Origin: an uncultured Armatimonadota bacterium | GTDB taxonomy: Bacteria > Armatimonadota > Fimbriimonadia > Fimbriimonadales > Fimbriimonadaceae | DNA: 64,000 nt | Assembly: GCA_903927025.1 (NCBI GenBank) | Contig: CAIYLG010000033.1 | Coordinates: 1-64,000 of the forward strand | Reading direction: 5' to 3' | Part shown: piece by piece, positions 5,017 through 61,261 of the stretch | How the letters are laid out: each line of letters starts with the position of its first letter | Position numbering within the stretch: position 1 is the stretch's first letter | Made by a program: the position numbers and the translations under genes | Notes under the pieces: model-generated | The model's input: the letters and a program-made list of their open reading frames with translations, nothing else | Databases searched by the model: none | What the model was told of the DNA's origin: nothing

Positions 5017-5027
5017 ACCCCACCAAT

Positions 5028-6086: not shown

Positions 6087-6096
6087 TCTAATCCCA

Positions 6097-6124: not shown

Positions 6125-6287
6125 GGAGAGAGAGCCGGGCCGTTTAGGTCCGGGTTCATGACAAGGGCCCCCGGATGAGAATTTCCTTATTGCCAATTTA
6201 GGTCCATGCGACCAACGCTGAACGCGTTGGCCCTCCATCCCCGGCCCTTCCTCTCGCCAAGCCAAGCGAAAGGAAGGGAGAGGTGGC

Positions 6288-6698
6288 CTAGATCGTTCCT
6301 TCTGGGAACCAGAGAGCGAGCTCTCGTGCGGCGGCTTCTGGATCGCTGCTGCTGTGGGTGAGGTTGTCCTCAATCGTCAGGGCGAGGTCGCCTCGGACGG
6401 TGCCGGGGGCGGCGTCGACTGGGTTGGTGGCGCCCATCATGGCTCGAATCGCCTTGACGGCGTTGTCGCCCTGAACCGCGATCGCGACGATCGGGCCGCT
6501 GGTCAGATAGTCCACCACGCTGGTGAAGAACGGTCGCTCTTTGTGCTCGGCGTAGTGCTCCTCGACGGTGGTGCGAGGGGCATTGATCAGCTTGAGACCG
6601 GTGACTTTAAGGTTTCGTGCCTCGATCCTTCGAGTGATCTCTCCGATGAGATTGCGCTGGACCCCGCCGGGCTTGATAAGAACAAGTGTAGTTTCCAT
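6288..6698 (-). CDS. ndk: Nucleoside diphosphate kinase
   Basis: A 136-residue protein starting METTLVLIKPGGVQRNLIGE, the conserved NDK N-terminus with the nucleotide-binding KPGGVQR. It also shows GATNPVDAAPGTVRGDLA and the active-site segment NLTHSSSDPEAA, whose His becomes phosphorylated. It transfers gamma-phosphate between nucleoside triphosphates and diphosphates in the cytoplasm. Family consensus around the catalytic His is N-x-x-H-G-S-D; here Gly is Ser. Length is normal. Convergent with the isomerase gene; the gap holds hairpin repeats. Confidence 0.97.
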   Translation of the reverse strand: METTLVLIKPGGVQRNLIGEITRRIEARNLKVTGLKLINAPRTTVEEHYAEHKERPFFTSVVDYLTSGPIVAIAVQGDNAVKAIRAMMGATNPVDAAPGTVRGDLALTIEDNLTHSSSDPEAAARELALWFPEGTI

Positions 6699-6802
6699 AT
6701 TTGAGTAAAGAGTTTACCGGGTGGCCCTACAAAGACTCTTCTTGCACTGTTAAGCGATTGTGCTAGGCAATCGCAACCATTTTCGAGAAGTCGCAGTAAT
6801 CT

Positions 6803-7795: not shown

Positions 7796-8755
7796 ATGGC
7801 TTCCCCAATTGCTGATCTTTCCTATCGCAACTACGACGGACCTCTGGACCCGCCGATCAACCGCTGGTGGGCCATCGCCAAGATGTCCATGCGCCTTTCG
7901 ATTAAGAAGAAGGGTTTCTGGGTCTGGGCGGTCATGTCCGGCTACTGGTATCTGATCCTGCTCGCGATCTTCTACTTTGCGGATCAGAGCACCCAGCTTG
8001 GAAACGCGGTCGGACGCAAGAACCCGTTCTTCAGCAATATCGTTTGGAAGGACCTGTTCGTCAATGGCTTCTCCGTGAGCCAGCTCTTCTTCCTGATCCT
8101 GGCGCTTTTGATAGGAGCGGGCACGATTGCAAACGACAACCGGGCGAATGCGCTCCTCGTCTATCTCAGCAAGCCGTGTACCAAGCTGGATTACGTCATG
8201 GGCAAATGGCTGGGGATCTTCATTCCGATGACGATCGTGACCGCCGTCCCCACGCTTATCTTCTACCTCTACTGCCTCATGAGCTACCGAACCTACGGAT
8301 TCCTCTCTCAGGACCCATGGCTGATTCTGAAGCTCCTTGGCATGGTGCTCGTTCCTGGAGCGCTCCATTCGAGTCTTGCCCTCGGAGTGAGTTCGATGTT
8401 TCAGCAGGGGCGTCTGGCCGGTGCAACCTACGCGGGCGTTTACTTCTTCGGAGTCTTCTTCACAAAGGCCATGCAGAGCATCGGCGTCATGAGCGCCATG
8501 AACGGGTCGGAAGGGCCCTCCGGAACAGTGAACAGCCTCTATTACTGCTCAATCGACGGTATCCAGATCGCCCTCGCAAAGATCCTTCTGCATACCGACG
8601 GCAGTCAGCTGATTCCCGGGCAACCGGCAACCCCGATGAAATTGGTGATGCCTGCGCCCTCGGGCTGGATTTTCGTCCCTGCTTTCTTTGGCATCTGCGC
8701 GCTGGCCATGTTGCTTGCCTGGAGCCGCATTAAGGCTGTTGAGGTGGTGGGTTGA
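7796..8755 (+). CDS. ABC-2 type permease (first of two)
   Basis: A 319-residue membrane protein. Hydrophobic segments are visible at about 42-60 (FWVWAVMSGYWYLILLAIF), 95-112 (FFLILALLIGAGTIA), 140-165, 180-205, 210-225 and at the C-terminus (PAFFGICALAMLLAW). This gives roughly six helices, as in ABC-2 membrane subunits. It starts immediately after the stop of the ATPase gene and its stop overlaps the next ATPase start (TGATG), indicating tight translational coupling. It forms the translocation pore with the preceding ATPase. Substrate not predictable. Confidence 0.85.
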   Translation: MASPIADLSYRNYDGPLDPPINRWWAIAKMSMRLSIKKKGFWVWAVMSGYWYLILLAIFYFADQSTQLGNAVGRKNPFFSNIVWKDLFVNGFSVSQLFFLILALLIGAGTIANDNRANALLVYLSKPCTKLDYVMGKWLGIFIPMTIVTAVPTLIFYLYCLMSYRTYGFLSQDPWLILKLLGMVLVPGALHSSLALGVSSMFQQGRLAGATYAGVYFFGVFFTKAMQSIGVMSAMNGSEGPSGTVNSLYYCSIDGIQIALAKILLHTDGSQLIPGQPATPMKLVMPAPSGWIFVPAFFGICALAMLLAWSRIKAVEVVG

Positions 8756-9675
8756 TGATGGTTTCTGCGACAAACGTCTCTCGCTGGTACGGCCAGGTGA
8801 TTGGTCTCAACGACATCACCTGCGAGATCGGCCCAGGGATCACGGCTCTCCTCGGCATGAACGGCGCGGGCAAAACTACGCTGATTCGGCTTATTACCGG
8901 CCAGCTTCGCCCCACCACCGGCGACCTCAAGGTCTTTGGAGAAGCGCCGTTTGCCAACGCGAACGTCTATCGACGGCTGGGCTACTGCCCCGAGATCGAC
9001 AACTTTTATGAGCATTACACCGGTCGAGAGTTCGTTAAGTTCCTTGCTCGACTAGATGGTCTCAGTGCGGATCAGGCCAAGAAGCGAACGGAAGAAGTTC
9101 TTGAGCTGGTCGGCATGTCTGACCGGGCGGGCAGAAAGATTGCTGGCTACTCCAAGGGCATGCGGCAGCGCATCAAGCTCGCGCAGGCGATGCTTCACGA
9201 CCCAGACATGATCCTGCTCGACGAGCCGCTGAACGGCCTCGACCCTGTCGGTCGCCGCGAACTGATCGATATCCTCGGGTCCCTTGCCAACCAGGGCAAG
9301 GCGATTCTGGTCAGCTCTCACATCCTCTTTGAAGTGGAGCAGATGACGCGCTCTCTTCTCCTGCTTCATCGGGGCCGGCTTCTGGCGACGGGTGACCTCG
9401 GAGTGATTCGGTCACTCATCGACAAACACCCGCACCAAATACGAATAGAGACAGACGACCCCCGAAAGGCAGCTGCGCTCCTGGCGCCGCTTCCCAATGT
9501 GGTCAGCATGCGGTTTGACCGCTCGGGAGATGCGATCCAACTCGAAGTGAGAGAGCCAGACAGCTTCTACGATGCCCTTTCGCTGGCTGTGCTGGAGCAA
9601 GGTCTTTCGATTCGGGGATTCAGCAGCCCGGACAACAACCTGGAATCCGTGTTCAAGTATCTGGTGGAGGCATAG
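8755..9675 (+). CDS. ABC exporter ATP-binding protein (second of two)
   Basis: A 306-residue ATPase starting MMVSATNVSRWYGQV. It has Walker A GMNGAGKT (34-41), signature YSKGMRQR, Walker B MILLDEP followed by LNGLDPVGRRE, and the switch segment SSHILFE. ATG 8755 overlaps the permease stop by one base; ATG 8758 is the alternative start. It is related to the first ATPase but clearly diverged and lacks the Pro-rich tail. It probably pairs with the permease at 9676. Two complete exporter pairs in one operon suggest a four-subunit complex or two co-regulated exporters. Confidence 0.93.
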   Translation: MMVSATNVSRWYGQVIGLNDITCEIGPGITALLGMNGAGKTTLIRLITGQLRPTTGDLKVFGEAPFANANVYRRLGYCPEIDNFYEHYTGREFVKFLARLDGLSADQAKKRTEEVLELVGMSDRAGRKIAGYSKGMRQRIKLAQAMLHDPDMILLDEPLNGLDPVGRRELIDILGSLANQGKAILVSSHILFEVEQMTRSLLLLHRGRLLATGDLGVIRSLIDKHPHQIRIETDDPRKAAALLAPLPNVVSMRFDRSGDAIQLEVREPDSFYDALSLAVLEQGLSIRGFSSPDNNLESVFKYLVEA

Positions 9676-25746: not shown

Positions 25747-26568
25747 ATGATGCTGCACACCCTTCTGGCTGCGTTTCTTGTTTCTGCTCACACGCCTATC
25801 GGCGCGCCCAAACAGGTTTCTCCAAAGCACCGGGAAGCGGTGGCTTTTGCACGGGTGAACCCCGCGAAGATGCTCAAAACCGATCCGCTGTGGGTTGACG
25901 CCTCACGGGAGGTTCATGCCGACCAGGGCAGAATTGATCAGCAGCTTCGACGCCTCGCCCAAGCCGAGCTGGACCGATATGTGGTGCGGCGCGGTTCCAG
26001 AAAGGGGCAAAAGCTGTCTCTAACCTTCGATGATGGCCCGCATCCTGATTTCACCCCCAAGCTCGTCAAGATCCTCAAGGATGCCAAGATTCCTGCCACC
26101 TTCTTCATGATCGGGCACATGGCGGATACCTATCCCGACATGGTGAAGCTGGTCGCGTCAAACGGCTTTGAAATCGCAAACCACACCTACAGCCATGTGA
26201 CGCTTACCAAGCTGACCAACTCAGAGGCAGACATTGAGTATCGCGCCACAAACGATATCCTCAAGAAGCTCACGGGCAAAACCCCACGATACTGCCGCCC
26301 ACCCGGCGGAGACTTTGACCTGAACGTTTTGGAGGCCGGATATGCCTCAGGGATGTCCACTGTGCTGTGGACCGACGACCCCGGCGACTACAACAACCCC
26401 GGTGATGAGATTCTGCTTGAGACTGAGACCGTCCGCCTCTCCCCAGGAGGAATCGTACTCCTCCACGACGGCTCCCAAGACACCCTCGACACCCTCATGA
26501 AGTTCATCACGAGCTGCAGGCGAAGAGGCTTCGAATTCGTAACCCTCGACGAGCTCAGAAAGAAATAG
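25747..26568 (+). CDS. Polysaccharide deacetylase (NodB domain), secreted
   Basis: A 273-residue protein with a signal peptide (MMLHTLLAAFLVSAHTPIGA). The NodB domain is at about 88-270. Motif 1 is LTFDDGPHPD (catalytic and metal Asp), motif 2 is HTYSH (metal His pair), motif 3 is RPPGGDFD, with DDPGD and IVLLHDG further on (catalytic His). CE4 enzymes remove N-acetyl groups from peptidoglycan, chitin or exopolysaccharide in the envelope. All key residues are present, so it is likely active. Monocistronic; followed by repeats. Confidence 0.93.
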   Translation: MMLHTLLAAFLVSAHTPIGAPKQVSPKHREAVAFARVNPAKMLKTDPLWVDASREVHADQGRIDQQLRRLAQAELDRYVVRRGSRKGQKLSLTFDDGPHPDFTPKLVKILKDAKIPATFFMIGHMADTYPDMVKLVASNGFEIANHTYSHVTLTKLTNSEADIEYRATNDILKKLTGKTPRYCRPPGGDFDLNVLEAGYASGMSTVLWTDDPGDYNNPGDEILLETETVRLSPGGIVLLHDGSQDTLDTLMKFITSCRRRGFEFVTLDELRKK

Positions 26569-31580: not shown

Positions 31581-34500
31581 ATGAAGCGCATGTTTGTGCT
31601 GTTGTTGCTTGCCTCGCTCGTAGGGGTTGCCGTTGCCGGGGCTCCTGGTCAAAAGCCGGTGAGGGTTTTTGTTCTTTGCGGGCAGTCCAACATGCAGGGG
31701 CAGGCGGTGGCGGACCTTGCTGGGAAGGATTACAACGACGGGAAAGGAACGCTGAGGGCGGCGCTGGCGGACCCGGACAAGTTCTCGACTTACAGCCATC
31801 TCGTCAACCCCGACGGGTCCTGGAGGGTGCGGAACGATGTCTTTGTGCGGTACCAGCGGGAAGAGGAACCGCTCTTGGCGGGGCCGCTGGGGCTAGGGTT
31901 CTCGGTCTATGGCGACACCCACCACTTTGGGGTGGAGCTGCAGTTCGGCCACGTGGTGGGCGATGCACTGGGCGGGCCGGTGCTGCTCATCAAGACGGCG
32001 TGGGGAGGCAAGAGCCTCTATACGGATTTCCGACCGCCCTCCTCCGGCGGCGAGGTGGGCAAGTACTACAAGCTGACCATCCAACAGATTCAAGATGGAC
32101 TTGGCAAGATGGGCACCGACTTTCCGCAGCTCAAAGGTCGCAGGACCGAGCTGGCGGGCTTTGTGTGGTGGCAGGGATGGAACGATGGCGTGGACCCCAA
32201 ACACGCGGTGCCGGAGTACGAGCAGAACCTGGTGAACTTCATTCACGACGTTCGCCACGACCTCCATTCCCCCAAACTGCCGTTCGTGGTCGGAGAACTG
32301 ACGGGACCTTGGGTGAAGGCACCCGGAGAGTGGGACACACTGCGCAGGGCGCAGGCCGCCGCCGCTCAGCGGCCAGAGTTTAAGGGGACCGTCCTCTTTG
32401 TTCCCACTCACGACTTTGTCCGAAAGCCGGAGGATTCCCCGAATCCCACTCACGGTCACCATGAGTTTGGAAACGCGGAGACCTACTTCCTGGTAGGCGA
32501 CGCGCTTGGCAAAGGCGCCCTCAAGCTGATGGGAATCAGCGACGAAATCCAGATGAAGGATTACGGCCTCAAGCACTACGTTCGCCTGTCCAAGGCCCTG
32601 CCGCACATGGAGGATCGCAGCTGGCGGCTGGTGTGCAAAATGCCCTACAACTGCCAGAGTCAGCCCTGGATTCGGGTGAAGGGGCGAGGCGGCGAGCAGC
32701 TCCAGTTCAACTCCACCAATCCGCTGGTGCAGTACCTGACGCCGACGGAGACCTGCACCCTGAGCCCGGGGCGGCATGACTACGAGGCGAAGAATTGGGT
32801 GAGCGGTGAAGGCTCCGTCTACACGATTCCGGCAGGGGTGACGGTTGAGGACGTGCAGTATCGCGAGACCGGCTTTCCAACCTCCGTTACCGGCTCCTTT
32901 GAATGCAGCGACCCGGACTTCAACACCCTTTGGAACCGCGCCGCACGCACCGCATACCTGTGCATGCGGGATCACTTCTACGACTGTCCGGACCGAGAGC
33001 GGGTGGGCTTTTGGGGCGACGGCACCCCAGAGCTGGACCAGTGCTTTTACATCTTTGATTCCAATTCCCACCGCCTCTGCCGCGACCTCGTGCGGCGCAA
33101 GCTGGAGCCCACGTTCTATCCCGGCCAGCATCTCGAGTTCCTGGGGGAATACGGGCTGTGGTTCTACTACATGCAGACCGGTGACCTCGATTCGCTTCGC
33201 GCCGTGTATCCCGCCACCAAGAACTTCCTCTTGAAGACCTACGCGTTTGGCAACAAGGGAACCTGGTTCGACTGGGGCAAGGATATCAAGGACACCAGCG
33301 TCATCGAGAACTGCTTTGAGTACATCGACCTCGGCACCCTTGAGAAGATCGCCAAGGTGACGGGGCATGCCGCGGACATTCCGGAGATCGAAGCCCGCCG
33401 AGCCGCGATCCAGGCATCGTTCAACCAGAAGTATTGGAAGGGCAAGTGGTATCAGTCCTCCGATGTGGCGACACCGGATGACCGCGCCAATGCAATGGCG
33501 GTGAACGCGGGGCTGGCCGAGCCGGAGAAGTGGGAATCCATTTATCGAAACGTGCTCTCCACAACCACCTACTCAAGCAGCTTTTTTGACCGCTGGGTGG
33601 TGGAGGCGCTGTGCAAAATGGGGAAGCGGGAGAAGGCGCTCGCGCGGATGTCCACCCGGTACCGAACGATGATCCAAAGCCCCATCACCACGCTGTGGGA
33701 GCACTACGACCGATGGTGGGCCTCCTGGATCGATGCGTTCGACGAGGGCAGCTCCCTCAACCACGGCTGGAACCCACCTGCGATTGTGCTGAGCAAAGAT
33801 ATCGCCGGAATTCAGCCCACCGAGCCGGGGTGGACCCAATTCGAGGTGATGCCCGGGGAGGCGCACCTCACCTCGATCAAAGTGGTGGTCCCTACCGTTA
33901 AGGGAAAGATTCCGGTCGAGATCGCCAAGTCCGGCACCGAGTACCGGGTGACGGTGACGGCACCTGCGGGGACCACCGCCATCGTCGGAATTCCGATGGG
34001 CTCCTTCTCGCGTTTGGATTCCATTTCTGCCAACGGAAGGCTGGTGTGGGACGGCCAATATGCCGGGGGACCCAAGGGTGTGAAGGCAGTTGGGATTGAG
34101 GATGACTACGTGAAGTTCAGCGTGCCTACAGGGACTTGGAGCTTCATCGCAAAAGGCCTGCTCCCGGTGGCGGCGCCAAAGGTGATTCCGATAACGGAAG
34201 CCCCGGAAGTCTGCCTCGATACCCATCGCTGGGTCGCGAGCGCTTCGGTTCCGGATGCGATGTTCACCTTCAGCGGTGCCAACCTGCCAGTAGACGGCTC
34301 CGCCGCAAACGCCTTGGACGGCGACCATTGGACCGGCTGGCGAGACAAGACAAAGACCCAGTACCCCGGCCAATGGTTCCAGGTGGACATGCAGCGGCGA
34401 GAGACGTTTAACAAGATCGAACTGGAGAACGCCTGGGCAGTGTGGGATTCTCCCAAAGCGTACGCAGTGACCGTCTCCAAAGACGGCCAGCACTGGAGCC

Positions 34501-34652
34501 AGCCCATCGCCACCGGCAAGGGGCAACTCGGCCTCACCGTCATCCGCTTCCCATCCCAAACCGCCCGGTTCATCCGAGTGACCCAAACCGCCTCCGACCC
34601 GACGTATTTTTGGTCGATTTACGAGTTCAGCGTATATCGGAAGAAATCATGA
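31581..34652 (+). CDS. Secreted three-part enzyme: SASA esterase, GH78-like domain, CBM32
   Basis: A 1023-residue protein with a signal peptide (1-20). Domain 1 (about 25-310) is a sialate-O-acetylesterase/CE6-type SGNH esterase: nucleophile Ser36 in GQSNMQGQ, then TAWGGKSL, WWQGWND and the His of THGHHEFGN. Domain 2 (about 410-790) is an alpha-L-rhamnosidase-like (GH78) six-hairpin domain: FECSDPDFNTLWNRAARTA, DCPDRERVGFWGDGTPELDQ and SLNHGWNPPAIVLSKDI. Domain 3 (about 895-1020) is an F5/8C (CBM32) carbohydrate-binding module. It would deacetylate and cleave rhamnose-containing polysaccharide. Its stop overlaps the start of the next gene (ATGA). Confidence 0.85.
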   Translation: MKRMFVLLLLASLVGVAVAGAPGQKPVRVFVLCGQSNMQGQAVADLAGKDYNDGKGTLRAALADPDKFSTYSHLVNPDGSWRVRNDVFVRYQREEEPLLAGPLGLGFSVYGDTHHFGVELQFGHVVGDALGGPVLLIKTAWGGKSLYTDFRPPSSGGEVGKYYKLTIQQIQDGLGKMGTDFPQLKGRRTELAGFVWWQGWNDGVDPKHAVPEYEQNLVNFIHDVRHDLHSPKLPFVVGELTGPWVKAPGEWDTLRRAQAAAAQRPEFKGTVLFVPTHDFVRKPEDSPNPTHGHHEFGNAETYFLVGDALGKGALKLMGISDEIQMKDYGLKHYVRLSKALPHMEDRSWRLVCKMPYNCQSQPWIRVKGRGGEQLQFNSTNPLVQYLTPTETCTLSPGRHDYEAKNWVSGEGSVYTIPAGVTVEDVQYRETGFPTSVTGSFECSDPDFNTLWNRAARTAYLCMRDHFYDCPDRERVGFWGDGTPELDQCFYIFDSNSHRLCRDLVRRKLEPTFYPGQHLEFLGEYGLWFYYMQTGDLDSLRAVYPATKNFLLKTYAFGNKGTWFDWGKDIKDTSVIENCFEYIDLGTLEKIAKVTGHAADIPEIEARRAAIQASFNQKYWKGKWYQSSDVATPDDRANAMAVNAGLAEPEKWESIYRNVLSTTTYSSSFFDRWVVEALCKMGKREKALARMSTRYRTMIQSPITTLWEHYDRWWASWIDAFDEGSSLNHGWNPPAIVLSKDIAGIQPTEPGWTQFEVMPGEAHLTSIKVVVPTVKGKIPVEIAKSGTEYRVTVTAPAGTTAIVGIPMGSFSRLDSISANGRLVWDGQYAGGPKGVKAVGIEDDYVKFSVPTGTWSFIAKGLLPVAAPKVIPITEAPEVCLDTHRWVASASVPDAMFTFSGANLPVDGSAANALDGDHWTGWRDKTKTQYPGQWFQVDMQRRETFNKIELENAWAVWDSPKAYAVTVSKDGQHWSQPIATGKGQLGLTVIRFPSQTARFIRVTQTASDPTYFWSIYEFSVYRKKS

Positions 34653-37108
34653 TCACTCTTCTTGCTGGCTGGCTCATCGCCGGTTGTGCTGCTCAGGACC
34701 GCTCGCCGATCGATCAGCCGTACGCCTACCTTTGCGGTGGAGCGTTCTCTGGCACCCCGGTGCCAGAGTCACCGGACCCGCTCGTTTCATACCGTTGGAA
34801 TCGGGTGAAGGCGGACGACCCTCTCCAAGTTTTCGTGCGTCGACCGGTAGCCGTTGTGGCAACTCCGCCTAAAGCTTTTAGAAACACCGACTCGGCGAGG
34901 AAGAGCTCGGCAGACATTACGGTCAAGGATGCAGGCACCCTCCGCCTAGACTTTGGTGCAGAACTTCCCGCTTGGATTGAGTTCGACAGTCCAGATGGTC
35001 CGGGTTCGGTCGAAATGAGCATCGGCGAATCCAGCGAACCGGGCGTGGATAAAACTGCGATGGCAACCAAGCATGGCGGCACCTATCGCCTTGAGCTTAA
35101 CCCGGAGCTGTACGATGGAGTTCGGTTTGCCTGGATCCGATCTTCTAAGCCCCAACAACCGTGGCATATCACCGCGATCCGAGCGATGTGCCAGGTGAAG
35201 CCAGTCAACTATCTCGGCTCGTTCCATTGCAGCGACCCTGAACTCACCAAGATTTGGTATATGGCTGCTTACGGAGTCAAGGCAGCCCTCTGCAAGGACT
35301 ATTTCGGTTCGATTCTGATGGATCGGGGTGATCGCATGTCTTGGACCGGCGATGCCCACCCAACCCAGGCGGCGGCACTGGTGGCGTTCGGCAACTACGA
35401 CTTTGTTCGCCAGAACCTTGAGAGGACGTCCGGGCAGGACAATGGGATCCGAAGCTATTCGCTCTACTGGATTCTCAGCCTCTTGGACTACTACTATTAT
35501 ACTGGCGATGCCGACTTTGTGGAGAAGTGCATACCCACCGCCTGCAAGAAGCTTGACAGTGCCTTTGCAGAGTTCGACAAGAAACCTGGGCTTGGGTTTT
35601 ACGGTTGGGACGAGCGACTTGGTGCTGGGTTTGAGCTCTGGTTCCGGCCGTGTGACGAAGCTCAGCGTGCGTACCGAATGCTGGCAATACGAGCTTGGAG
35701 CGACTTCGCAACAGCGATGGGAACACTTGGACACAAAGACCTGCTGTATAAATATCGGGTCGAGGCTGCCGCTAAAGTGGCGCAACTGACGGCGACTGCC
35801 GATTGGCACAAGGAGTACGGCCCCCACGCGATAGCCGATGCCATTAACACCGGGCGGATGAACCTGGACACGATGGAGAAGGTCTACGAAAGGGAGCTCA
35901 AGGATCGGGTGGATAGGCTCTCCTTTTCTCCGTTCAATGAGTTCTTCATTCTGCAGGCCCTTGCCACTTTGGGCAAATGGGATGAGGCGCTGGATACCAC
36001 CAAAGATATGTGGGGCGGAATGCTGCGATATGGCGGAACCACGCCTTTTGAGGTCTATCGCCCCTCCTGGAACCCGTTTTTGGCGAAGAACGAGCCGGTT
36101 CCAAACACCCAATGTGGCCTTACCAGCCTCTGCCACCCTTGGGGCGCAGGGATCATAAAGTGGCTCAGTGAAAATATTCTCGGTGTCACGCCCACCGCGC
36201 CTGGCTTCAGAACCTTTGATGTGAGGATGGCGTTTGGTTCCAAGCTGAACGACGTTAGCGGTTCCGTTCCCACCCCACACGGCCCGATCCGAGTTTCCTA
36301 CAACCTGGCTGCAGGTAGCGGTGAGCTAGAGGTGCCTCCTCAAAGCGTCGGCAAATTCTTCATCCCAACCGAGGGGCGGGGCATTCGTCGGGTCTGGATG
36401 GATGGGAAGCTTGTGGTCGATCCGGTTCACTTTTCAAAACTCTCTCCGGGCTGGGCGGAGGCGGTGACCGTTCCTTCTCTGCTGCCGGGTATCCACCGCT
36501 TCAAGGTGGAGTATGTCGGCCACCGAAACAAGTCTGTTGACTCTAAACTCGCCTACCAAACGCACCTAATGGCAGTTGACTCGAAGACAAGGGGGAACTG
36601 GGGCGGCATCTACGGTCGAGAGGGTTACGTGCTGTGTGGCGGCAATGGGGTTTTCCAGGACGTTGAACGCCTCCCCTCTTATGTCGATTCGATCGACTTC
36701 TTCAGAGCCTTTCCGAAGAATGGCCGACCGGACACCACGATTTGGGCAGATGCAACTAGTGATGCCCGAGCCCTTGCCTTTACCCACGAGAATCAGATGA
36801 TTCGAAGGGCAGCGAGCGTGTCCAACACAGACCAGACCATGACGGCGACGATTCACCTCAAGTCGCCCAGAAAGGTGAGGATCGCCCTCTACTTTGTGGA
36901 TTGGAACAGGGAAGGGACGAGGTCAGCGGTTGAACTCTTCGATGCGAAGTCCCTGCGCTTGTTGGCACCGGTGAGTCTCGTTTGCGACCATGGGAACGGA
37001 CGGTATCTGATCTATGAAGTTGACCGATCGGTTAAATTTCGATTCGACAAGATTCGCGGAAAGCTTGTCTCACTAAGCGGCATCTTCTTCGACCCCGTGG
37101 GCCGATAG
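34649..37108 (+). CDS. GH78-like alpha-L-rhamnosidase-type protein, secreted
   Basis: An 819-residue protein starting at ATG 34649, which overlaps the preceding stop; the longer frame from 34442 lies inside the upstream gene. The signal MITLLAGWLIAGCAAQ includes IAGC, a possible lipobox. The six-hairpin domain (about 190-570) shows FHCSDPELTKIWYMAAYGVK, LMDRGDRMSWTGDAHPTQ and TSLCHPWGAGIIKWLSENI, parallel to the rhamnosidase part of the preceding gene. The C-terminus (about 640-819) carries a separate module starting VDSKTRGNWGGIYGREGY, which I associate with a module recurring in secreted proteins of soil bacteria. The two genes form one polysaccharide-degrading unit. Confidence 0.78.
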   Translation: MITLLAGWLIAGCAAQDRSPIDQPYAYLCGGAFSGTPVPESPDPLVSYRWNRVKADDPLQVFVRRPVAVVATPPKAFRNTDSARKSSADITVKDAGTLRLDFGAELPAWIEFDSPDGPGSVEMSIGESSEPGVDKTAMATKHGGTYRLELNPELYDGVRFAWIRSSKPQQPWHITAIRAMCQVKPVNYLGSFHCSDPELTKIWYMAAYGVKAALCKDYFGSILMDRGDRMSWTGDAHPTQAAALVAFGNYDFVRQNLERTSGQDNGIRSYSLYWILSLLDYYYYTGDADFVEKCIPTACKKLDSAFAEFDKKPGLGFYGWDERLGAGFELWFRPCDEAQRAYRMLAIRAWSDFATAMGTLGHKDLLYKYRVEAAAKVAQLTATADWHKEYGPHAIADAINTGRMNLDTMEKVYERELKDRVDRLSFSPFNEFFILQALATLGKWDEALDTTKDMWGGMLRYGGTTPFEVYRPSWNPFLAKNEPVPNTQCGLTSLCHPWGAGIIKWLSENILGVTPTAPGFRTFDVRMAFGSKLNDVSGSVPTPHGPIRVSYNLAAGSGELEVPPQSVGKFFIPTEGRGIRRVWMDGKLVVDPVHFSKLSPGWAEAVTVPSLLPGIHRFKVEYVGHRNKSVDSKLAYQTHLMAVDSKTRGNWGGIYGREGYVLCGGNGVFQDVERLPSYVDSIDFFRAFPKNGRPDTTIWADATSDARALAFTHENQMIRRAASVSNTDQTMTATIHLKSPRKVRIALYFVDWNREGTRSAVELFDAKSLRLLAPVSLVCDHGNGRYLIYEVDRSVKFRFDKIRGKLVSLSGIFFDPVGR

Positions 37109-37188: not shown

Positions 37189-39072
37189 TTGACACTCCCT
37201 GCCGTAAGGGATTGGAAGCTTAGTCGTGAGTCGATCATCGCCGCTTTGGCGCTGGTCGCGATCGCTTTGTGTCTGATCCTGCGAGTCGTCGTTCCGTCTG
37301 CTAAAACCTACGGAGGATTTTCTGTATCGGATTGGCCCCTGATCATTGGGTTGGCTTTTGGGGGTACGCCGCTGGTCTACCAGCTGCTCAATCAGGCGCT
37401 CCACAAGGAGTTCGGGTCCGACCTGCTTGCCGGAATCTCCATTGTCACCTCGGTGTTCCTGCATCAGTACCTGGCAGGCACGCTTGTGGTTCTGATGCTG
37501 TCGGGCGGCCAGACGCTTGAGAACTACGCGGTGGGAAGTGCTTCCTCCGTCCTGCAGGCGCTGGCGAAGCGTATGCCATCGGTCGCCCACCTGAAGCAGG
37601 GGGAGAAGGTGGTGGATACGACGGTGGATGCGGTGAAGATTGGCGATCACCTCACCGTGTTTCCTCACGAACTTTGCCCGATTGACGGCTCGGTGGTGGA
37701 GGGGCACGGCACCATGGACGAGTCTTACCTCACCGGTGAGCCGTACCTGATTGAGAAGGCCCCGGGCTCGGAAGTGCTGTCTGGCGCGATCAACGGCGAC
37801 AGCGCGATTGTGATCAGCGCGACCAAGCTCGCGAGCGATTCTCGCTACGCGAAGATCATGGAAGTGATGCGGGCCTCCGCCCAGCGTCGCCCAAGGATGA
37901 GGCGTATCGCCGACCAGCTTGGCGCGATCTACACTCCTCTCGCGGTGACGATTGGTCTTGCGGCATGGGCGGTTTCGCACGATCCGATGCGGTTCCTCGC
38001 CGTACTGGTGATTGCCACCCCCTGCCCACTTCTCATCGGTATCCCAGTGGCCATCATCGGGTCGATCTCCCTTGCCGCCAAGCGCGGCATTGTGATCAAA
38101 GATCCTTCCGTGCTGGAAAAGCTGAGCACATGTCGAGTGATGATCTTTGACAAGACGGGCACGCTCACCTACGGAAAGCCGCTCCTCACGGAAGTCGCCA
38201 TTGCACCGGGATTGACGGAAGACGATGTCCTCATGCTGGTGGCAAGCCTCGAGCGCTACTCCAAGCACCCCTTAGCAGGGGCGATTGTGGAAGCGGCGAA
38301 GGACCGAAAGATTGGGCTCAGGGAAGTCGCCGAGCTTAGCGAGCGACCCGGCCAAGGGCTCACTGGCGTGATTGATGGCCGAAAGGTGATGGTCACTGGA
38401 CGGAGTCAGGTCAACGAAGCGGAACTTGGCGGAAAGTTTGCGCGGGCGGAAGGCGGGTTGGAGTGCATCGTGGTTATCGATGGCACCGTCGCTGGAGTGC
38501 TGCGATTTAGGGATCAGCCGCGAACGGATGGGAAGGCATTCGTCCGACATCTCGATGCAAAGCACCAATTCTCCCGTGTCCTTCTCGTCTCGGGAGACCG
38601 GGATGTCGAGGTGAGAAACCTTGCCTCCCAAGTCGGCATCACAGAGATCTTTGCAAGCCAATCTCCAGAGCAGAAGCTGGACCTGGTGCGGGCAGAAACT
38701 CTGAAGGCAAACACCGTTTTCGTGGGAGATGGCATCAACGATGCCCCCGCCCTCACCGCCGCCACCGTTGGGATCGCGTTCGGCCAAAAGAGCGACATCA
38801 CCTCAGAAGCGGCCGGCGCCGTCGTCATGGACAGCACCCTGGAGCGAGTCGACGAACTCCTCCACATCAGCCACCGCATGCGATCCATCGCCCTTCAGAC
38901 CGCGCTGGGAGGCATGGCCGTCAGCATCATCGGCATGATTATCGCCAGCGTCGGAATTCTCACGCCAGTGGCGGGAGCCGTCAGTCAGGAAGTGATCGAC
39001 GTCCTGGCCGTCCTGAACGCGCTACGCGTCGCGTTTCCGCCGAAGGCGCTTACGGATTACTCAGCTTCCTGA
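37189..39072 (+). CDS. P1B-type metal-transporting ATPase, TPC type
   Basis: A 627-residue P-type ATPase. It has the actuator-domain TGEP (182-185), phosphorylation site DKTGT (321-325), the heavy-metal HP motif in YSKHPLAG and the hinge [10 protein letters not shown]. The membrane metal site reads TPCPLL (277-282). A TPC motif is reported for the P1B-5 (Ni/Fe-type) group, distinct from CPC copper/zinc pumps. No N-terminal HMA domain or His-rich tail is present. The start is TTG 37189. It exports a metal ion across the inner membrane; which one is undecided. It converges on the arsenic genes and overlaps the aquaporin gene end by 12 bases. Confidence 0.87.
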
Positions 39073-43742: not shown

Positions 43743-44366
43743 TCAGGCCCCGGTCACGGCGGCGGCCTTGGAGACGTGTGCGAGGAACTCCTCGCGCGTG
43801 TTTGTAACGGGAAACGGCTCTTCTGGAACCGGTACGCCGAGGGCTTTGCATAGAGGCTCCCAACCGTCGGACGCTTGCCAAATCACTAGGCGCTCAGCAG
43901 GGATGGCCTGGATCACCTCATCGTTGTGCTTCTTGAAAGCCGCGATACAGCTTTCCTTACATGCACGGTTCATTTGTGTTTTTGAACTGAAGATCGACTG
44001 GATCATGTCCTGCCAGTGAGGATCCGGCATTCGATCGATGGAGGCAAAGATCGTTTGGCTCGCACTCTCCCACCACTTCTCGGGGTCACGGACGGAGAGG
44101 ACGACCACCGCGTCGGGCAGTGCATCGCTCATCTCCTGCCAAAAGGCGGCCGACGGCCAGTCCACCGCGCTGCCGTAGCCGGCCAACAAGGAGTCCCAGT
44201 CAGGCAGGTTGCCTCTGCCGGCTTCTGCCCAGATCGAGCAGTGGTCCATGTGCTTAAACACCTCAACCATGTGATAGCATGGCTCTCCAGTGAGTCGCTC
44301 TAGGGCAAGTTTGAGAGAGTGAGTCCCTGTTCGGCCCAACCCTGCGCCGATTACTCGAATGCTCAT
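43743..44366 (-). CDS. Sulfotransferase family protein
   Basis: A 207-residue protein with the PAPS-binding P-loop GAGLGRTGTHSLKLALERL near the N-terminus (7-25) and VVLSVRDPEKWWES as the second 3'-phosphate-binding segment. This places it in the Sulfotransfer_4 group, which transfers sulfate from PAPS to a hydroxyl acceptor. The acceptor cannot be assigned. All core residues seem intact. Monocistronic; upstream lies the end of the TetR gene on the same strand, separated by a hairpin. Confidence 0.83.
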   Translation of the reverse strand: MSIRVIGAGLGRTGTHSLKLALERLTGEPCYHMVEVFKHMDHCSIWAEAGRGNLPDWDSLLAGYGSAVDWPSAAFWQEMSDALPDAVVVLSVRDPEKWWESASQTIFASIDRMPDPHWQDMIQSIFSSKTQMNRACKESCIAAFKKHNDEVIQAIPAERLVIWQASDGWEPLCKALGVPVPEEPFPVTNTREEFLAHVSKAAAVTGA

Positions 44367-44499: not shown

Positions 44500-45123
44500 T
44501 TAGGCTGCCTTCGAGCAGAACAGAAGCTTCGTGAGCCCGTCCTTGATTTCGGCGGGAGAGGTTTTGCCTTCTTGAACCAGGCGGTTGAAGGTGAGGCTCT
44601 TCATGGCTCCGAGGATGACCTCGGACAGGATGGTGGCGCTGACATCGCTTCTCACGCCTCCCTCTGCTTGAGCCAAGGAAACAAGCTCCTCCAGCTTCTT
44701 AATGAAGGCGCCCTGTGGCCCCGCGTAGCGCGGATCGTTTCCACACGACATCACCAAGCGGGTCATGTCGTAGAACATCTCACGATGCTCCCCAAACTTG
44801 CGATCGATGCACCAGCCCATGAACAGGCAGAGCCGGTCCGTTGCGGACATTGCAGGGTCCATCGCGGCAAGCTGCTCGGCGGCGTACTTCAGGTTGCGGA
44901 TGCCGACGTGGATGAGAACATCCTCCTTGGAGCTGAAATGCTGATACAAGGTGGGGCGAGAGATTCCGATTGCCTCGGTGATGTCCTCAAGGGTCATCGC
45001 GTTGAATCCCTTTGTCTGGATGAACTCAACCGCGGCGTCAAGGATTGCATCCTCGCGCAACTGTCTCTGTCGCTCCTTCATGCTGGGCCGAATCAACCCT
45101 GTTTCCACATCAGCGATGTTCAT
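44500..45123 (-). CDS. TetR-family transcriptional regulator
   Basis: A 207-residue regulator. The TetR helix-turn-helix is at about 25-70: ILDAAVEFIQTKGFNAMTLEDI, then TEAIGISRPTLYQHFSSKEDVL, a textbook match. The C-terminal ligand domain is divergent, with Cys at 104 and 127. It lies head-to-head with the TolC-EmrA-EmrB operon, 197 bases apart, the usual layout for a repressor controlling a multidrug efflux system. Confidence 0.93.
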   Translation of the reverse strand: MNIADVETGLIRPSMKERQRQLREDAILDAAVEFIQTKGFNAMTLEDITEAIGISRPTLYQHFSSKEDVLIHVGIRNLKYAAEQLAAMDPAMSATDRLCLFMGWCIDRKFGEHREMFYDMTRLVMSCGNDPRYAGPQGAFIKKLEELVSLAQAEGGVRSDVSATILSEVILGAMKSLTFNRLVQEGKTSPAEIKDGLTKLLFCSKAA

Positions 45124-51557: not shown

Positions 51558-53972
51558 ATGAAACAAGGAATAGTCAGATTCGGACTGGCGACTGCGTTTG
51601 CCTTAACGGCAGCCTTTGCCGCCGCGCAGTCCGCGATTTCAGTTTCCATCAACGGCCAGCCAGTCCAATTCGCGGGGACAGGTCCGCAGATGGTGGATGG
51701 AAGAGTCCTAGTGCCCCTGCGCGGAGTTTTTGAAAAGCTCGGGGCGTACGTTGAGTGGCACCCAGACAAGCGCGAAGTGGTCGCGAGTCGTGGCCAAAAC
51801 ACCGTCGATCTTCAAATCGGCAACCCCAACGCCACCGTCAATGGCCAGGCCGTCACGATGGACGTCCCCGCTCAGATCCTCGATGGATCCACGATGGTGC
51901 CGATTCGATTTGTAAGCGAAGCTATCGGCGCTCAAGTTCGATGGCAGGAGGCCGAGCAGCTGGTGATTATCACCGCCGACCAAGCTCAGGCCGCTCCTCC
52001 CGCACCGGTCGAGCCCGCTCAGCCCGCCCCATCTGCCGGCGAGGGCCCCATTCGCATGGCGCGCGTTTCGTACATCGACGGTGGCCTCATCTGGCGGCCA
52101 GGCGATGATGTTGATTGGTCTGATGCAGGAACCAATCTCCCTCTCAGACAGGGTGCCGAGCTGTGGCTCAACCCAGGCTCCCGAGCCGAAATCCAGTTTG
52201 ACGACGGAAGTCTGCTCCGACTCGGAAGCGGCGCTGTAGCCACCCTGCATACAATGTATTCGGATGATCGAGGTGAGTTCACCGAGATTCGTCTTAACAC
52301 TGGAACCGCAAGCTTCCGACTCACCAACGGGAATTCCTCTTATCAAATCGATACTCCGTTGGCATCGATCACCGCCTCTGGGCCATCCGGCTTCCGTGTG
52401 GATGCTTCCTCCGGCCTTCGACTCACGGTGCGAGATGGTCAGACTCACGTGCAGGGAGAAGCTGGCCAGATTGACGTTGGTCGCGGTGAATTCCTCCGAC
52501 TAACTGGGCCCAATGCCCGTTATGCTCTTGTTTCTGCCCCTGGTGGGGACGACTGGGATCGCTTCTGCGACGGTCGAGATCACGTCATCGTCCACCGCTC
52601 TTCCTACCTTCCGTCCAACATCGCCATCATGGGCGGCGAACTGGATGGCTATGGCACTTGGGTCCGAGACCCACAATATGGAAACTGCTGGCGTCCGAAC
52701 GGTGTCAGCCGAGACTGGGCACCCTATCGTGATGGTCACTGGGTGTGGGTTAGCCCGTTTGGCTGGACTTGGTGTGGCAACGAGCAGTGGGGCTGGGCTC
52801 CGTATCACTACGGCACGTGGTTCCCAAGCTCGAACGGATGGTGCTGGCGCCCGGGTCCAGCCCAGCAATGCTGGTCCCCCGCCGTCGTGCACTTCAGCAC
52901 CGATCGCGGATCGATTGCTTGGTGCCCACTGGCCCCATCCGAGGTTCGCTATCCGCCGGTTGTCTCCGTGAACTTCCGCGTCGGAAATTGGGCGGTGAAC
53001 TTCGCCATTGGTGGAGCCGCTTGCTACTATCCGGACGGCAGGGACTCCTGTTCGCCTAGACCTTGGAGAAACTCCGAGATCAACCGAACGACCAACGTTT
53101 ACAACATCACTCGAGTGACGAACATCACGAACGTGTATGTGAACAACAACGGCTTTGTCCCCCGCAACTCTCGGGTTGCCGGAGGTGCCACCGTGACTAC
53201 CACAAGTGGATTCGCGGGAAGAGATCGATTCAATGCTGGTGGTGCCAACGCCACCCAGATCTTTACACGCGGCAAGATGTTTGCCTCGCCGACTGAGGGT
53301 GGAGCCCGCTATGCTGGCCCGACAAACGTACGGCCGACGGCGCGCTCTTTTAGCCCCAGTGTTGGATTCTCGGGAGCTCGTCCCAACTCGGCGGTTCTCA
53401 ACCGACCGGTTATTCGGGCGGCAGCGCCGGCTCGTACGACCGGATGGGTTCAGCCCATGCAGGGCGCTCGAAGTCTGCCTGCCGTTGTCCGCGTCCCAAC
53501 CCGATCCGTTCCACCTCGCACCAATCCTGGTTTCCGAACACCTCCTGTGAACCCGGTTCACCCGCCGAACCGAAACGTTCCACCGGTAGTGCCAAATCGA
53601 CCACCTGTGCGAAACGCTCCTCCCGTCATCAACCCGAGGAATCGAGTTCCTGGCAGCTTCAATCCTAGAGGCACCCCGCCCGTGCCTGTCAACCCCCCAA
53701 TCGTAAGGCCAAACAACCCTCGACAACCACGTCGACCAGTGGCCCCACCCGTCATCACTCCAAGGCAGGTTCCCCCTCCCGCCGTAACCCGAGCCCGCCC
53801 AGCTCAGCCGCCGGTCAACACTCGCCCCCGCGTGGTGCCGCCCCCGGTTCAGCCTAGGCAGACTCCTCCCGCACGAGTGATCCCGCCCAAGCGGGTTCCG
53901 CCCCCCAAGGGCAAAACTCCGCCTCGCAAGCCCAACGATAAAGGCAAGAAGGGAGACAATACCGGCGGCTAA
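51558..53972 (+). CDS. Copper-amine-oxidase-N / FecR / Trp-rich / Pro-rich secreted protein
   Basis: An 804-residue protein with a signal peptide (ends near AAAQ). A copper-amine-oxidase-N (stalk) domain follows at about 31-138 (VDGRVLVPLRGVFEKLGAYVEW, then STMVPIRFVSEAIGAQVRW), then a FecR-type domain at about 165-335 (GSRAEIQFDDGSLLRLGSGAVATL). A Trp-rich segment spans about 355-460 (GTWVRDP, DGHWVWVSPFGWTW, WGWAPYHYGTW), and an Asn/Thr stretch spans 505-530. The Pro/Arg-rich tail from about 620 to the end is low complexity and ends in Lys/Gly. The AAGGAG before the ATG is strong. Probably an envelope or cell-surface protein. Confidence 0.85.
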   Translation: MKQGIVRFGLATAFALTAAFAAAQSAISVSINGQPVQFAGTGPQMVDGRVLVPLRGVFEKLGAYVEWHPDKREVVASRGQNTVDLQIGNPNATVNGQAVTMDVPAQILDGSTMVPIRFVSEAIGAQVRWQEAEQLVIITADQAQAAPPAPVEPAQPAPSAGEGPIRMARVSYIDGGLIWRPGDDVDWSDAGTNLPLRQGAELWLNPGSRAEIQFDDGSLLRLGSGAVATLHTMYSDDRGEFTEIRLNTGTASFRLTNGNSSYQIDTPLASITASGPSGFRVDASSGLRLTVRDGQTHVQGEAGQIDVGRGEFLRLTGPNARYALVSAPGGDDWDRFCDGRDHVIVHRSSYLPSNIAIMGGELDGYGTWVRDPQYGNCWRPNGVSRDWAPYRDGHWVWVSPFGWTWCGNEQWGWAPYHYGTWFPSSNGWCWRPGPAQQCWSPAVVHFSTDRGSIAWCPLAPSEVRYPPVVSVNFRVGNWAVNFAIGGAACYYPDGRDSCSPRPWRNSEINRTTNVYNITRVTNITNVYVNNNGFVPRNSRVAGGATVTTTSGFAGRDRFNAGGANATQIFTRGKMFASPTEGGARYAGPTNVRPTARSFSPSVGFSGARPNSAVLNRPVIRAAAPARTTGWVQPMQGARSLPAVVRVPTRSVPPRTNPGFRTPPVNPVHPPNRNVPPVVPNRPPVRNAPPVINPRNRVPGSFNPRGTPPVPVNPPIVRPNNPRQPRRPVAPPVITPRQVPPPAVTRARPAQPPVNTRPRVVPPPVQPRQTPPARVIPPKRVPPPKGKTPPRKPNDKGKKGDNTGG

Positions 53973-58412: not shown

Positions 58413-61253
58413 CTAGCCAGGTGGATTGACGGTCAGCTGTACTGTTTTGGTCGCGGTTCCAAGGGTCGCTGTGATCGTGACGACCTGGGGCGTCTTCACC
58501 AGCACGGTTCCAACCTGGAAGCTCACGGTTTTGACTCCAGCCGGAAAATCCGCCAAATACGGCACCACCACCACTGAGGGATTACTCGAGGTGAGCCAAA
58601 CGTAGGTGTCAAAGAGCCCGGGCGGGTTGGCCATGGTGACGGTGCCGGAGACGGCATTCCCACCCACTACACTTGAGGCGCTTAGTGTGAAGCTGGTCAA
58701 CACCGGTGGCGAGATCGTCAGGGATGTCGTGAGCGAGTTTGGACCGCTGATCACCGTGATCGGCACCGTGGTGACCGAATTCTCATCTTCGCTCATGACG
58801 GTGAAAGTCCCGGAAGTCGCTCCAGCCGGAATCACCAACGTGGTCGGCAACTGAAATGTGTACCAATATCCCAGGCCGGTCTGGATGCCTAACGTGACCC
58901 CTCCGCTGGGCGCTGGTGATTCCAATGTCACGGTTGCGGTGGTGGTTGTCCATGTGGGAATGGATGACTGACTCAGTTTGATGCTCTTAAGTGGCACGGA
59001 GACGAGGTTGGGCAGTTTTGCAACCGCGATGCCGATGTTGCTGTTGCAGATAGCAGCGGTGCCCCCGTCTTGTGAGAGTCCGAAATACGGTCCAGATCCG
59101 GTGGTGTAGTACCCCAGGAACAAGCTGTTTGCCCAGTTGAACACCTGAACGGCACCGGTTTCTCCCGATGAAGCCGCATACAACGCGCTGCCATCCGGAG
59201 AAAACCGAACCGAGTCAACCGAGATGGTATTCGTCAGGAGCGGCAAGATGGCTTTCCTGGTACCAGTTGTCAGGTTCCAATTTTCAAGGCTCCCAAGGTT
59301 CAATCCGCCAGTCGGGGATGAATAGCCTGCGGCGGCCAAAGACTTTCCGTCGGGGGAGATCGCAACCCCAGAGATGACCGATGCCTGGGTGGCAAGGCTG
59401 AACATCCGTCGTCCCTTCACCACATTCCAAACTTCAAGGATTCCAACTGAGCCAGCTGTCGATTTGTAGCTGCCGCCTAATGCTAGGGTCATGCCGTCGG
59501 CGGAGAAGGCGATGGAATTGATGCCACCGTTGGACCCGGTTGGATAAGTGGCGATGCGCTTCCCGGTCGAATAATCCCACAGTTCCACAGCTGCTGGACC
59601 CACACTCGCGGCAGGTCCTGCTACGGCAAGGAGGGTCGATTTGGGAGAAAATGCCAAAGTGCCAGGATAGACACTGCAGGAGAGTGTTTCCTTGATGCTC
59701 CCCGAGGGTAGATCCCAGATCAACACACTGCCCGGGCTGGAATAGTAATTGGTGACAGCCAGGAGTTTGTCGTCTGTCGAAAATGCAGCGGCAAAGTTTG
59801 CGGCAGAAATATGGGTCGGCACTGCCGCGGCAAGAGCTCCATCAGCAGTGTTCCAAATGTTCATGACCCCATTCTGAGAGTCGAACCCAGACACGCTGTA
59901 GTTGTTGCCACCTCCCAACACATACTTGCCGCTGGGAGAGAAGGTAGGTTTCACCGACGCGCTTTCGGGACCCCACCATCCGTATGCGGTAATTGAGGAT
60001 CCGTACAACAAGGCGCCAGTAGTGGTGCTGCCTACATTGAAGAAGCTCCCTGAGGGTTCCATTGCTCCCCCCATTCCCGTACCAAACCAGCTCACTGCAT
60101 TACCCGCAAACGCGATCTTGGAAGCGTCGTCTGAAAACGCCACCCCCGTCGCGGCACAACCAGAATAATATGTGACTCTCGGATAGGCCAGGTTGGAGAG
60201 GTTCCAGAGCGAAACGTAGGCATTCATGTACCGTTGCCCCATCTGAGACGCAGGGCTCAAAGTAACCACCGCAAACTGGTCCGCATCCGGTGAAAGAACC
60301 GCTCCGGAAGGGAGTGCAAGGATGTGGTTGATGGGCGAACTCAGGGTTCCATCCGACAAATGCCAGGTTCCGATCGCGCCTTCACTCCCGCTGCTGCCGG
60401 CGCACGCCACGGTTTTGCCGGAGGATGGGAATACGACGCTGTTGACGCTGGTCAGATCACTGACATTGAGGTTCTTGTACAGCGTGCTCGTGGAGGTGTT
60501 CCACAGCTCCAGGACTCCTACCTTGGTCCACTGGGCCGTATAAGCTTGGCCTCCAACTGCCAAATACTGACCAAACCGAGAATAGGCCACTGAAGCGACA
60601 GTTGCGGCAGATGTCTTGATACTGGACACCTTCGAGTTCGTGGAAACATTCCACTGCTCGACAAGACTAACGCCCTGGCTGCTCGCAAAGCCGCCTAAGG
60701 CAAGCGTTTTTCCATTTGGAGAGAAGACAAACGAATTGATCGTGGAGACCTTGGAGTTGATCGCCCCCAAGTAGGTGCCAGTCTCGTAGTTCCATAGCTC
60801 GATCCTCTGTGCCTGAGTTGGAGAAATGGACTCGATCGCCAGGGTTCTTCCGTCGGATGAGAAGATGAAATTTTGCGGATTTCCGAAGTGCGGAATGATC
60901 TCGCGCAAGGGGAGCTGGGTGCCTGTGAAATAGATGCAGATCCCGCCTGAAACGCCGACACCTACCAGGCTCTGATCGTGAGAGAGAGCGATCGAACCGG
61001 TGTAGTCCGTGGGAGAAAACTGCCACTTGAAATTTTCAGGTGTCTGCCCGCGCGTGAAGCTGGAAGCCGCGAGAAGGAACAGGATCGCCGCTGCCGAGCG
61101 GATGGATGTATGATCTTTTCTTCTGAAAACTTTAACAGATCCGCTTGAGTTCTTGGGCCAATTCACGTTTGCTTCCTCGCTTGAATTCACATTCAATCGC
61201 ATCTTGGCCAGACCCTGGATTTTGTGGGAAGTGAGAGTCGGAAAGGGAGTCAT
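58413..61253 (-). CDS. Secreted WD40-like beta-propeller protein (first of tandem pair)
   Basis: A 946-residue protein with a hydrophobic signal-like segment after a long basic N-terminus (about 52-69, AAAILFLLAASSFTRG). ATG 61202 is another possible start, giving 929 residues. The body carries many WD40/PQQ-like blades with repeating FSPNGKTLALGG, FSADGMTLALGGSY and ISPDGKSLAAAGY, each followed by LWNY-like or WNVSTN-type ends. The C-terminal 180 residues are Ig-like (VTLESPAPSGGVTLG, TSFTLSASSVVGGNAVSGTV, VVTITATLGTATKTV). A 9-base gap separates it from its paralogue upstream. Confidence 0.82.
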   Translation of the reverse strand: MTPFPTLTSHKIQGLAKMRLNVNSSEEANVNWPKNSSGSVKVFRRKDHTSIRSAAAILFLLAASSFTRGQTPENFKWQFSPTDYTGSIALSHDQSLVGVGVSGGICIYFTGTQLPLREIIPHFGNPQNFIFSSDGRTLAIESISPTQAQRIELWNYETGTYLGAINSKVSTINSFVFSPNGKTLALGGFASSQGVSLVEQWNVSTNSKVSSIKTSAATVASVAYSRFGQYLAVGGQAYTAQWTKVGVLELWNTSTSTLYKNLNVSDLTSVNSVVFPSSGKTVACAGSSGSEGAIGTWHLSDGTLSSPINHILALPSGAVLSPDADQFAVVTLSPASQMGQRYMNAYVSLWNLSNLAYPRVTYYSGCAATGVAFSDDASKIAFAGNAVSWFGTGMGGAMEPSGSFFNVGSTTTGALLYGSSITAYGWWGPESASVKPTFSPSGKYVLGGGNNYSVSGFDSQNGVMNIWNTADGALAAAVPTHISAANFAAAFSTDDKLLAVTNYYSSPGSVLIWDLPSGSIKETLSCSVYPGTLAFSPKSTLLAVAGPAASVGPAAVELWDYSTGKRIATYPTGSNGGINSIAFSADGMTLALGGSYKSTAGSVGILEVWNVVKGRRMFSLATQASVISGVAISPDGKSLAAAGYSSPTGGLNLGSLENWNLTTGTRKAILPLLTNTISVDSVRFSPDGSALYAASSGETGAVQVFNWANSLFLGYYTTGSGPYFGLSQDGGTAAICNSNIGIAVAKLPNLVSVPLKSIKLSQSSIPTWTTTTATVTLESPAPSGGVTLGIQTGLGYWYTFQLPTTLVIPAGATSGTFTVMSEDENSVTTVPITVISGPNSLTTSLTISPPVLTSFTLSASSVVGGNAVSGTVTMANPPGLFDTYVWLTSSNPSVVVVPYLADFPAGVKTVSFQVGTVLVKTPQVVTITATLGTATKTVQLTVNPPG

Positions 61254-61261
61254 GCTAGGGC

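Follow-up and report, generated by a model that had tools for sequence, protein, structure and literature searches.

It is reasonably probable that two genes overlapping by four bases, here called P1 and P2, form a unit of exported enzymes which couples the deacetylation and the cleavage of one acetylated glycan. Both are located on the forward strand of a stretch of 64,000 nucleotides (the window), belonging to an uncultured Armatimonadota genome (G000) of 5.25 Mb that is 98.4% complete. According to this proposal, the SASA esterase domain of P1 would strip O-acetyl groups from the glycan; the GH78 domain of P1 would then cut an alpha-L-rhamnosyl (or close deoxy-sugar) linkage shielded by the acetyl, and the CBM32 of the same chain would anchor the enzyme to the polymer; P2, with its own accessory module, would cut this glycan at another linkage. 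The proposal is built on the domains, on their aligned catalytic residues, on the overlap of the two genes and on the repeated fusion or adjacency of the same parts in other phyla. If the coupling is real, P1 represents a natural combination of deacetylation and deglycosylation on one chain, rebuilt in several orders elsewhere, and it points to a glycan whose acetylation blocks the rhamnosidase.

The stop codon of P1 (TGA, 34650-34652) and the start codon of P2 (ATG, 34649-34651) share an ATGA junction (34649..34652, + strand), as given in a preliminary description of this DNA, and this overlap may couple the translation of the two genes. A GTG start at 34442 was also considered for P2 and is unlikely, giving a longer frame inside P1. 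Since P2 is followed on this strand by a gene for a P-type ATPase (37189-39072), the unit is taken to consist of two genes; a larger operon was rejected, and the Pfam-scanned frames upstream hold no glycosidases. A polysaccharide deacetylase is encoded upstream at 25747-26568, and no Rfam match reached the gathering threshold between 29000 and 39000.

P1 (31581..34652, + strand; 1023 aa) is probably secreted: its residues 1-20, MKRMFVLLLLASLVGVAVAG (31581..31640), read by eye, have the appearance of a Sec signal peptide. They are followed by a SASA-type esterase domain (residues 27-297; 31659..32471), by a GH78 region delimited with Pfam and PDB alignment (residues 325-870; 32553..34190) and by a CBM32 or F5/8 type C domain (residues 906-1015; 34296..34625), all on the + strand. 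The GH78 region is composed of an N-terminal beta part, the six-hairpin barrel (PF17389, 437-730) and a C-terminal domain (PF17390, 743-807). The reading of a single chain with esterase, GH78-like and CBM32 parts holds, all four Pfam matches lying above the curated cut-offs (E-values: SASA 8.7e-22, Bac_rhamnosid6H 1.5e-22, Bac_rhamnosid_C 5.5e-09, F5/8 type C 6.7e-16). The last of these reaches 59 bits against a cut-off of 28.2, which places it in CBM32 as a predicted carbohydrate-binding module; it also resembles the discoidin CBM32 of glucanase/chitosanase (4ZXE, 2RV9), with a profile match at E about 4e-12. A comparison with NCBIfam gave only matches far under the cut-off.

The esterase of P1 is a SASA domain by fold and family score, and by motif it is no typical CE6. 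The PF03629 match scores 78.3 bits against a cut-off of 24.8, a sequence profile finds 2apj at E 3.7e-11, and the best fold matches are SASA-type esterases (2apj, Z 22.8, 229 aligned residues, rmsd 3.4; 1zmb, Z 21.9; XAC1771, Z 20.8; CE20, NanS and SIAE). As in the SASA/CE6 and CE20 acetylesterases (2APJ, 1ZMB, XAC1771, Fl8CE20_II, NanS), an SGNH fold is combined with a GQSNM motif, here holding Ser36, and a catalytic His, here His294; both residues are present in 26/26 homologues, and the Ser-His pair is thus intact as had been stated. The whole string G34-Q35-S36-N37 is invariant in these 26 rows, as is G143. Unlike those acetylesterases, the clade carries [QH]GWND in place of the QGE of block III (QGWND at 198-202 in P1; W200, N201 and D202 in all 26), a Trp standing where the glutamate is expected, and it has no block V Asp (DxxH/DxH): position 291 or 292 is never Asp in the 26 rows, and is Glu in three rows at 291 and in one at 292. 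Because this block III lacks the glutamate that SASA/CE6 enzymes have in QGE, the CE6 half of the earlier label "CE6/SASA-type" is doubtful. Moreover, the domain is continuous and lacks the inserted ancillary domain carried by Fl8CE20_II; this absence alone does not separate it from CE20, since eukaryotic CE20 members also lack the insertion according to PMC12313940.

We consider the domain a putative deacetylase. An alternative, which we judge unlikely, is that it acts on another ester or has become a binding remnant: the (H)QGE motif replaced throughout the clade is described as universally conserved in SASA (PMC9487903), and no Asp occurs two or three residues ahead of His294. However, Gln35, Ser36, Gly143, Asn201 and His294 are all invariant, the best folds belong to esterases of the SASA type, and EcNanS likewise lacks the block V Asp in the account of PMC9487903. 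CE20 enzymes are reported in PMC12313940 to use a water-mediated triad, so that esterase sites of this kind can be rebuilt.

The GH78 domain of P1 is probably an alpha-L-rhamnosidase, a putative assignment made by fold and aligned catalytic residues. Residues were mapped by alignment to 2okx, 3cih and 4xhc together with motif spacing, and compared among 64 homologues (identity at least 40%, coverage at least 85%), in all of which E473 (acid), F477, D480, W565, E707 (base) and H728 are kept. In KoRha, as described in PMC4690510, Asp222 is the likely acid, Glu486 the putative base, Asp229 and His508 are rhamnose ligands, and Trp226 and Trp341 are stacking residues, the former conserved in four solved structures. 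D480 and H728 correspond to Asp229 and His508 by spacing and alignment; the position of Trp226 is taken by F477 according to motif spacing, with W478 coming next, and Trp226 is no absolute criterion for the GH78 family. The ten best fold matches of the P1 model are all solved GH78 rhamnosidases (Z 25-34), led by 3cih (Z 34.2, 484 aligned residues, rmsd 4.5).

P2 (34649..37108, + strand; 819 aa) was identified from Pfam and sequence as a second GH78-like enzyme. Its N-terminus, LLAGWLIAGC, contains a lipobox-like IAGC and, judged by eye, looks like a lipoprotein signal; the same holds for the P2 of locus L015 (LALGAC), and in L046, L131 and L132 the leader is longer and of the ordinary kind. 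The GH78-like part extends over about residues 91-597 (34919..36439, + strand), and its Pfam matches exceed the curated cut-offs (Bac_rhamnosid6H 2.5e-08, Bac_rhamnosid_C 7.7e-10), the PF17389 match being weak at 34.0 bits vs 24.5. Mapping by motif spacing and alignment to 3cih, 2okx and 4xhc gave D228 as acid and E468 as base. D228, W232 and D235 are found in 16/16 homologues, two further truncated rows lacking the region; E468, H496 and W498 are found in 18/18. W320 is kept in the 17 rows that cover it, and the alignments leave the counterpart of KoRha Trp341 unfixed. The ten best fold matches of the P2 model, a comparison covering the GH78-like part with the C-terminal module outside it, are GH78 structures (Z 21-29), the first being 6i60 (Z 29.4, 492 aligned residues, rmsd 4.5). 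P2 is therefore described here as a putative rhamnosidase of a clade other than that of P1.

Acid and base are thus aligned in both GH78 domains, and the objection foreseen in the preliminary description, namely that the catalytic acids might be missing, does not apply. Structure prediction, proposed there for verifying the active sites, returned GH78 folds for both proteins, but the loops with catalytic or binding residues fall under pLDDT 50 (469-476 and 722-727 in P1, mean of the model 83.0; 208-237 and 456-498 in P2, whose model, built on 8 aligned rows, has a mean of 59.9). For this reason the models were set aside as proof of the active sites and were not used for geometry.

The remainder of P2 is a distinct C-terminal module, as had been described, of about 210 aa (residues 610-819; 36476..37105, + strand), holding VDSKTRGNWGGIYGREGY and an invariant core D..T.G.W...YG..G. 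It stands outside the Pfam families: the module of the window protein had no match, and across 18 homologous modules no family was hit in more than one member, the best match being DUF5625 (E 0.0081, 1/18). Among PDB sequences no match was found at E up to 10. The module occurs in 3/85 genomes of the family, always within a P2, and a search of viral contigs and plasmids found no P2 relatives. At L148 (6444-10976) a P2 relative is extended at its N-terminus by about 670 residues, in which Pfam matched no family.

The two GH78 domains represent remote clades, neither of which has a close relative that has been characterised. They share with BT1001 (3CIH), BsRhaB (2OKX), KoRha (4XHC) and SaRha78A (3W5N) the six-hairpin fold, the acid and base and the Asp/His pair that binds O3/O4 of rhamnose; they differ from them in their low identity (14-23% in structural alignments) and, for P1, in the Phe that replaces the stacking Trp. 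Neither the esterase partner nor the C-terminal module of P2 was matched in these four enzymes. It is conceivable, if rather unlikely in our view, that one or both domains act on an L-sugar other than rhamnose and that the clades should be set apart as a subfamily or a separate family. In G000, PF17389 has 17 matches, with P1 counted twice; seven places elsewhere in the genome score 268-420 and the others 21-94, and the Bac_rhamnosid6H scores of P1 (80.8 bits) and P2 (34.0) are low beside the seven. The Phe at the Trp226 position throughout the P1 clade points the same way, but acid, base and the equivalents of Asp229 and His508 are kept in the clades of P1 and P2 alike, which argues for the rhamnosidase reading.

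For both GH78 domains the best PDB sequence match is BT1001 (3cih), which according to PMC7939467 cleaves Rha-alpha1,3-Api of rhamnogalacturonan-II (RG-II). The target could then be RG-II of pectin or a similar apiose/rhamnose glycan, with GH78 acting like BT1001. A single apiosidase-family gene (PF13204) in the window genome gives a hint of this, and genes of GH127, GH106, GH95 and GH2 adjoin relatives. We hold this to be quite improbable: the identity to 3cih in structural alignments is only 18% (P1) and 23% (P2), the window genes do not lie in a cluster of the RG-II type, and one apiosidase gene weighs little.

Evidence for cooperation also comes from relatives. Genome contigs were scanned with query peptides from all three modules of P1, and the best 80 of 89 related loci were kept; as SASA was among the queries, loci with fusions are over-represented in the counts that follow. 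P1-type GH78 is present in 67 of these 80 (L011-L077), the other 13 (L078-L090) having the SASA clade only. Across phyla, identity is 55-70% for the P1 GH78 and 42-59% for that of P2, and the recurrence of the former at this level in 67 loci from several phyla excludes a chance reading.

Within these 67 loci (among the best 80 of 89) the parts are found in several arrangements. Same-clade SASA is fused N-terminally to the GH78 in 5/67 (L011-L015), is the next gene in another 5/67 (L021, L025, L026, L030, L043) and lies two genes off in 1/67 (L032). In 4/67 (L025, L026, L030, L033) P2 precedes the GH78 in one continuous reading frame, giving P2-GH78-CBM32 chains of 1562-1610 aa in Akkermansiaceae MAGs, that is, a double-GH78 enzyme; in L025, L026 and L030 a separate SASA gene follows the fusion. 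P2 is adjacent to P1-type GH78 in 3/67, upstream in L036 and L046 and after P1 in L015. All three parts occur together in 4/67 of the loci among the best 80 of 89 (L015, L025, L026, L030), where L026 and L030, whose SASA rows are identical, cannot be regarded as independent. L015, from a Planctomycetota MAG, has the gene order of the window and the same ATGA junction, with a SASA of another subgroup. The trio, fused or side by side in other phyla, suggests that its parts cooperate on one acetylated sugar chain, and its reshuffling is good evidence for coupling between deacetylation and cleavage. Of the acetylated, rhamnose-rich system proposed in the preliminary description, the coupling is hence supported by the window, L015, L025, L026 and L030; a rhamnose-rich polymer or rhamnogalacturonan as substrate is not established.

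SASA genes of another kind are directly upstream of P1-type GH78 on the same strand in 3/67 loci (among the best 80 of 89, with part of the flank proteins scanned). These are Verrucomicrobiota genes (L051 2-1651; L063 1-2043; L071 1770-4751). One more such gene, in L017 (14926-17985, - strand), is some kilobases from the GH78, and those of L071 and L017 have DUF2341 and laminin-G-like domains. In L021 a SASA-GH95 fusion of 1335 aa (4977-8981) is directly downstream of the GH78-CBM32 gene.

Other genes recur around the set, and in this respect the earlier term trio, although its three parts do recur, was too narrow. Among the 67 loci (best 80 of 89), GH127 in five (L027, L036, L043, L046, L050) and DUF6288 in three (L021, L032, L038) are encoded in the direction of the GH78 and no more than 600 bases from it; DUF6288 is also found on the opposite strand in L031, and a sulfatase is near the GH78 in three. 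The neighbours of P2 include DUF6288 (L145), GH127 (L146), GH2 (L147), GH120 (L148) and GH106 (L149). G000 itself has 7 GH127 matches elsewhere in the genome and a single DUF6288 match, under the cut-off. DUF6288 genes were located at L021 196-2697, L032 1281-3767, L038 5186-7681 and L145 4412-6832; both members scanned with Pfam (L021, L145) contain HEAT repeats, and the literature search found no paper on this family. No SusCD-like pair was present among the 30 + 8 Pfam-scanned representatives of 613 clustered flank proteins.

These surroundings may also be read in a simpler way, in which the proteins are unremarkable debranching enzymes, encoded close together but with no substrate in common, and fusion does no more than keep exported activities together. 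Near the GH78, 56/67 loci lack a same-clade SASA and 60/67 lack a P2 (among the best 80 of 89, many of them on short contigs), and thus the parts also occur apart; the neighbours vary (GH127, sulfatase, other GH78, MocA-type oxidoreductase, peptidases, serine dehydratase), and the window genome has 17 PF17389 matches, P1 being included twice. We think this simpler reading rather improbable, because the same three uncommon families have been brought together by repeated and probably separate fusions or adjacencies, and because P1-type GH78 and P2 co-occur in Armatimonadota.

In a GH78 tree of 65 rows, made with a quick method, the fused proteins of the window, L011, L014 and L015 belong to a starred set of nine rows (Armatimonadota and L015) that includes unfused ones; the fused L012 and L013 are in a separate starred set of 13 rows, mostly Verrucomicrobiota. 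The position of the Planctomycetota L015 among Armatimonadota rows would be explained either by transfer or by misbinning of its 15.9 kb contig. In a SASA tree of 33 rows, made with a careful method, the fused domains form three pairs (window and L011, 96/91; L012 and L013, 97/93; L014 and L015, 100/98) with unfused rows between them, and the starred branches force at least two changes between fused and adjacent rows. Given these supported pairs, the forced changes and the split placement in the GH78 tree, SASA was probably fused on two or three separate occasions, domain exchange being an alternative.

P2 and P1-type GH78 were also counted by genome, with no more than 2-4 candidates scored in each. 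P1-type GH78 at an identity of at least 60% is present in 15/291 Armatimonadota genomes (the match in G013 being partial), five of which have it fused to SASA (G000, G091, G085, G096, G093); the GH78 part alone as query confirmed this with 16/291, a figure that includes one distant match at 36% (G010), which we did not retain. P2 is present in 6/291, a seventh match (G079), again distant at 36%, having been left out. The two are found together in 4/291 (G000, G094, G033, G032; Fisher p 6.6e-5, uncorrected for kinship, G032 and G033 being of one genus), and in G094, G033 and G032 they are on different contigs. In the phylum of G291, 2/337 genomes have P2 with an E-value no higher than 1e-80, G291 being one of them; in that of G295, 1/296 has P1-type GH78 with an E-value no higher than 1e-100, namely G295 itself. 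P2 and P1-type GH78 are thus both uncommon.

What appears new is how the domains are combined, how far the clades diverge, and the C-terminal module of P2; every domain family is already known. According to PMC9487903, a small and mainly bacterial fraction of SASA proteins carries an attached glycoside hydrolase domain; P1 likewise has esterase and glycosidase on a single chain, here with GH78 and CBM32 as partners and reshuffled with P2. XpoGH78 is reported to be a GH78 that acts on glycosides and esters (PMC9705965), with no mention of a SASA-GH78-CBM32 architecture in the listed entry. No paper on such a fusion appeared among the top literature matches, a search limited to papers, so the architecture, which the preliminary description asked to be checked for this, may still be a common one.

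Several relatives (among the best 80 of 89) come from lakes according to their records (Baikal, LacPavin), and Armatimonadetes are mentioned together with Microcystis (PMC5629041) and with duckweed (PMC6308005, PMC7511783). By analogy with these reports, cyanobacterial mucilage and aquatic plant pectin are equally possible substrates. A wider and doubtful extension, which we offer tentatively, is that the two GH78-like clades, so far unrecognised, the [QH]GWND SASA clade and a new carbohydrate-binding module might constitute a transferable kit for one acetylated deoxy-sugar glycan of aquatic environments, repeatedly fused at the gene level in Armatimonadota, Planctomycetota and Verrucomicrobiota. 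If the substrate were found, a function could be assigned to both GH78 clades, which are spread over several phyla, as well as to the SASA clade whose block III motif has changed and to the unnamed C-terminal module.

Other features were observed in the window. Two nearby frames of 207 aa are on the - strand (43743-44366 and 44500-45123), the first of which matches Sulfotransfer_4 (E 9.6e-61). An 804 aa protein (51558-53972, + strand) combines a copper amine oxidase N-terminal domain with FecR and DUF6600, and tandem large WD40-repeat proteins of 946 and 911 aa are encoded at 58413-63997 (- strand).
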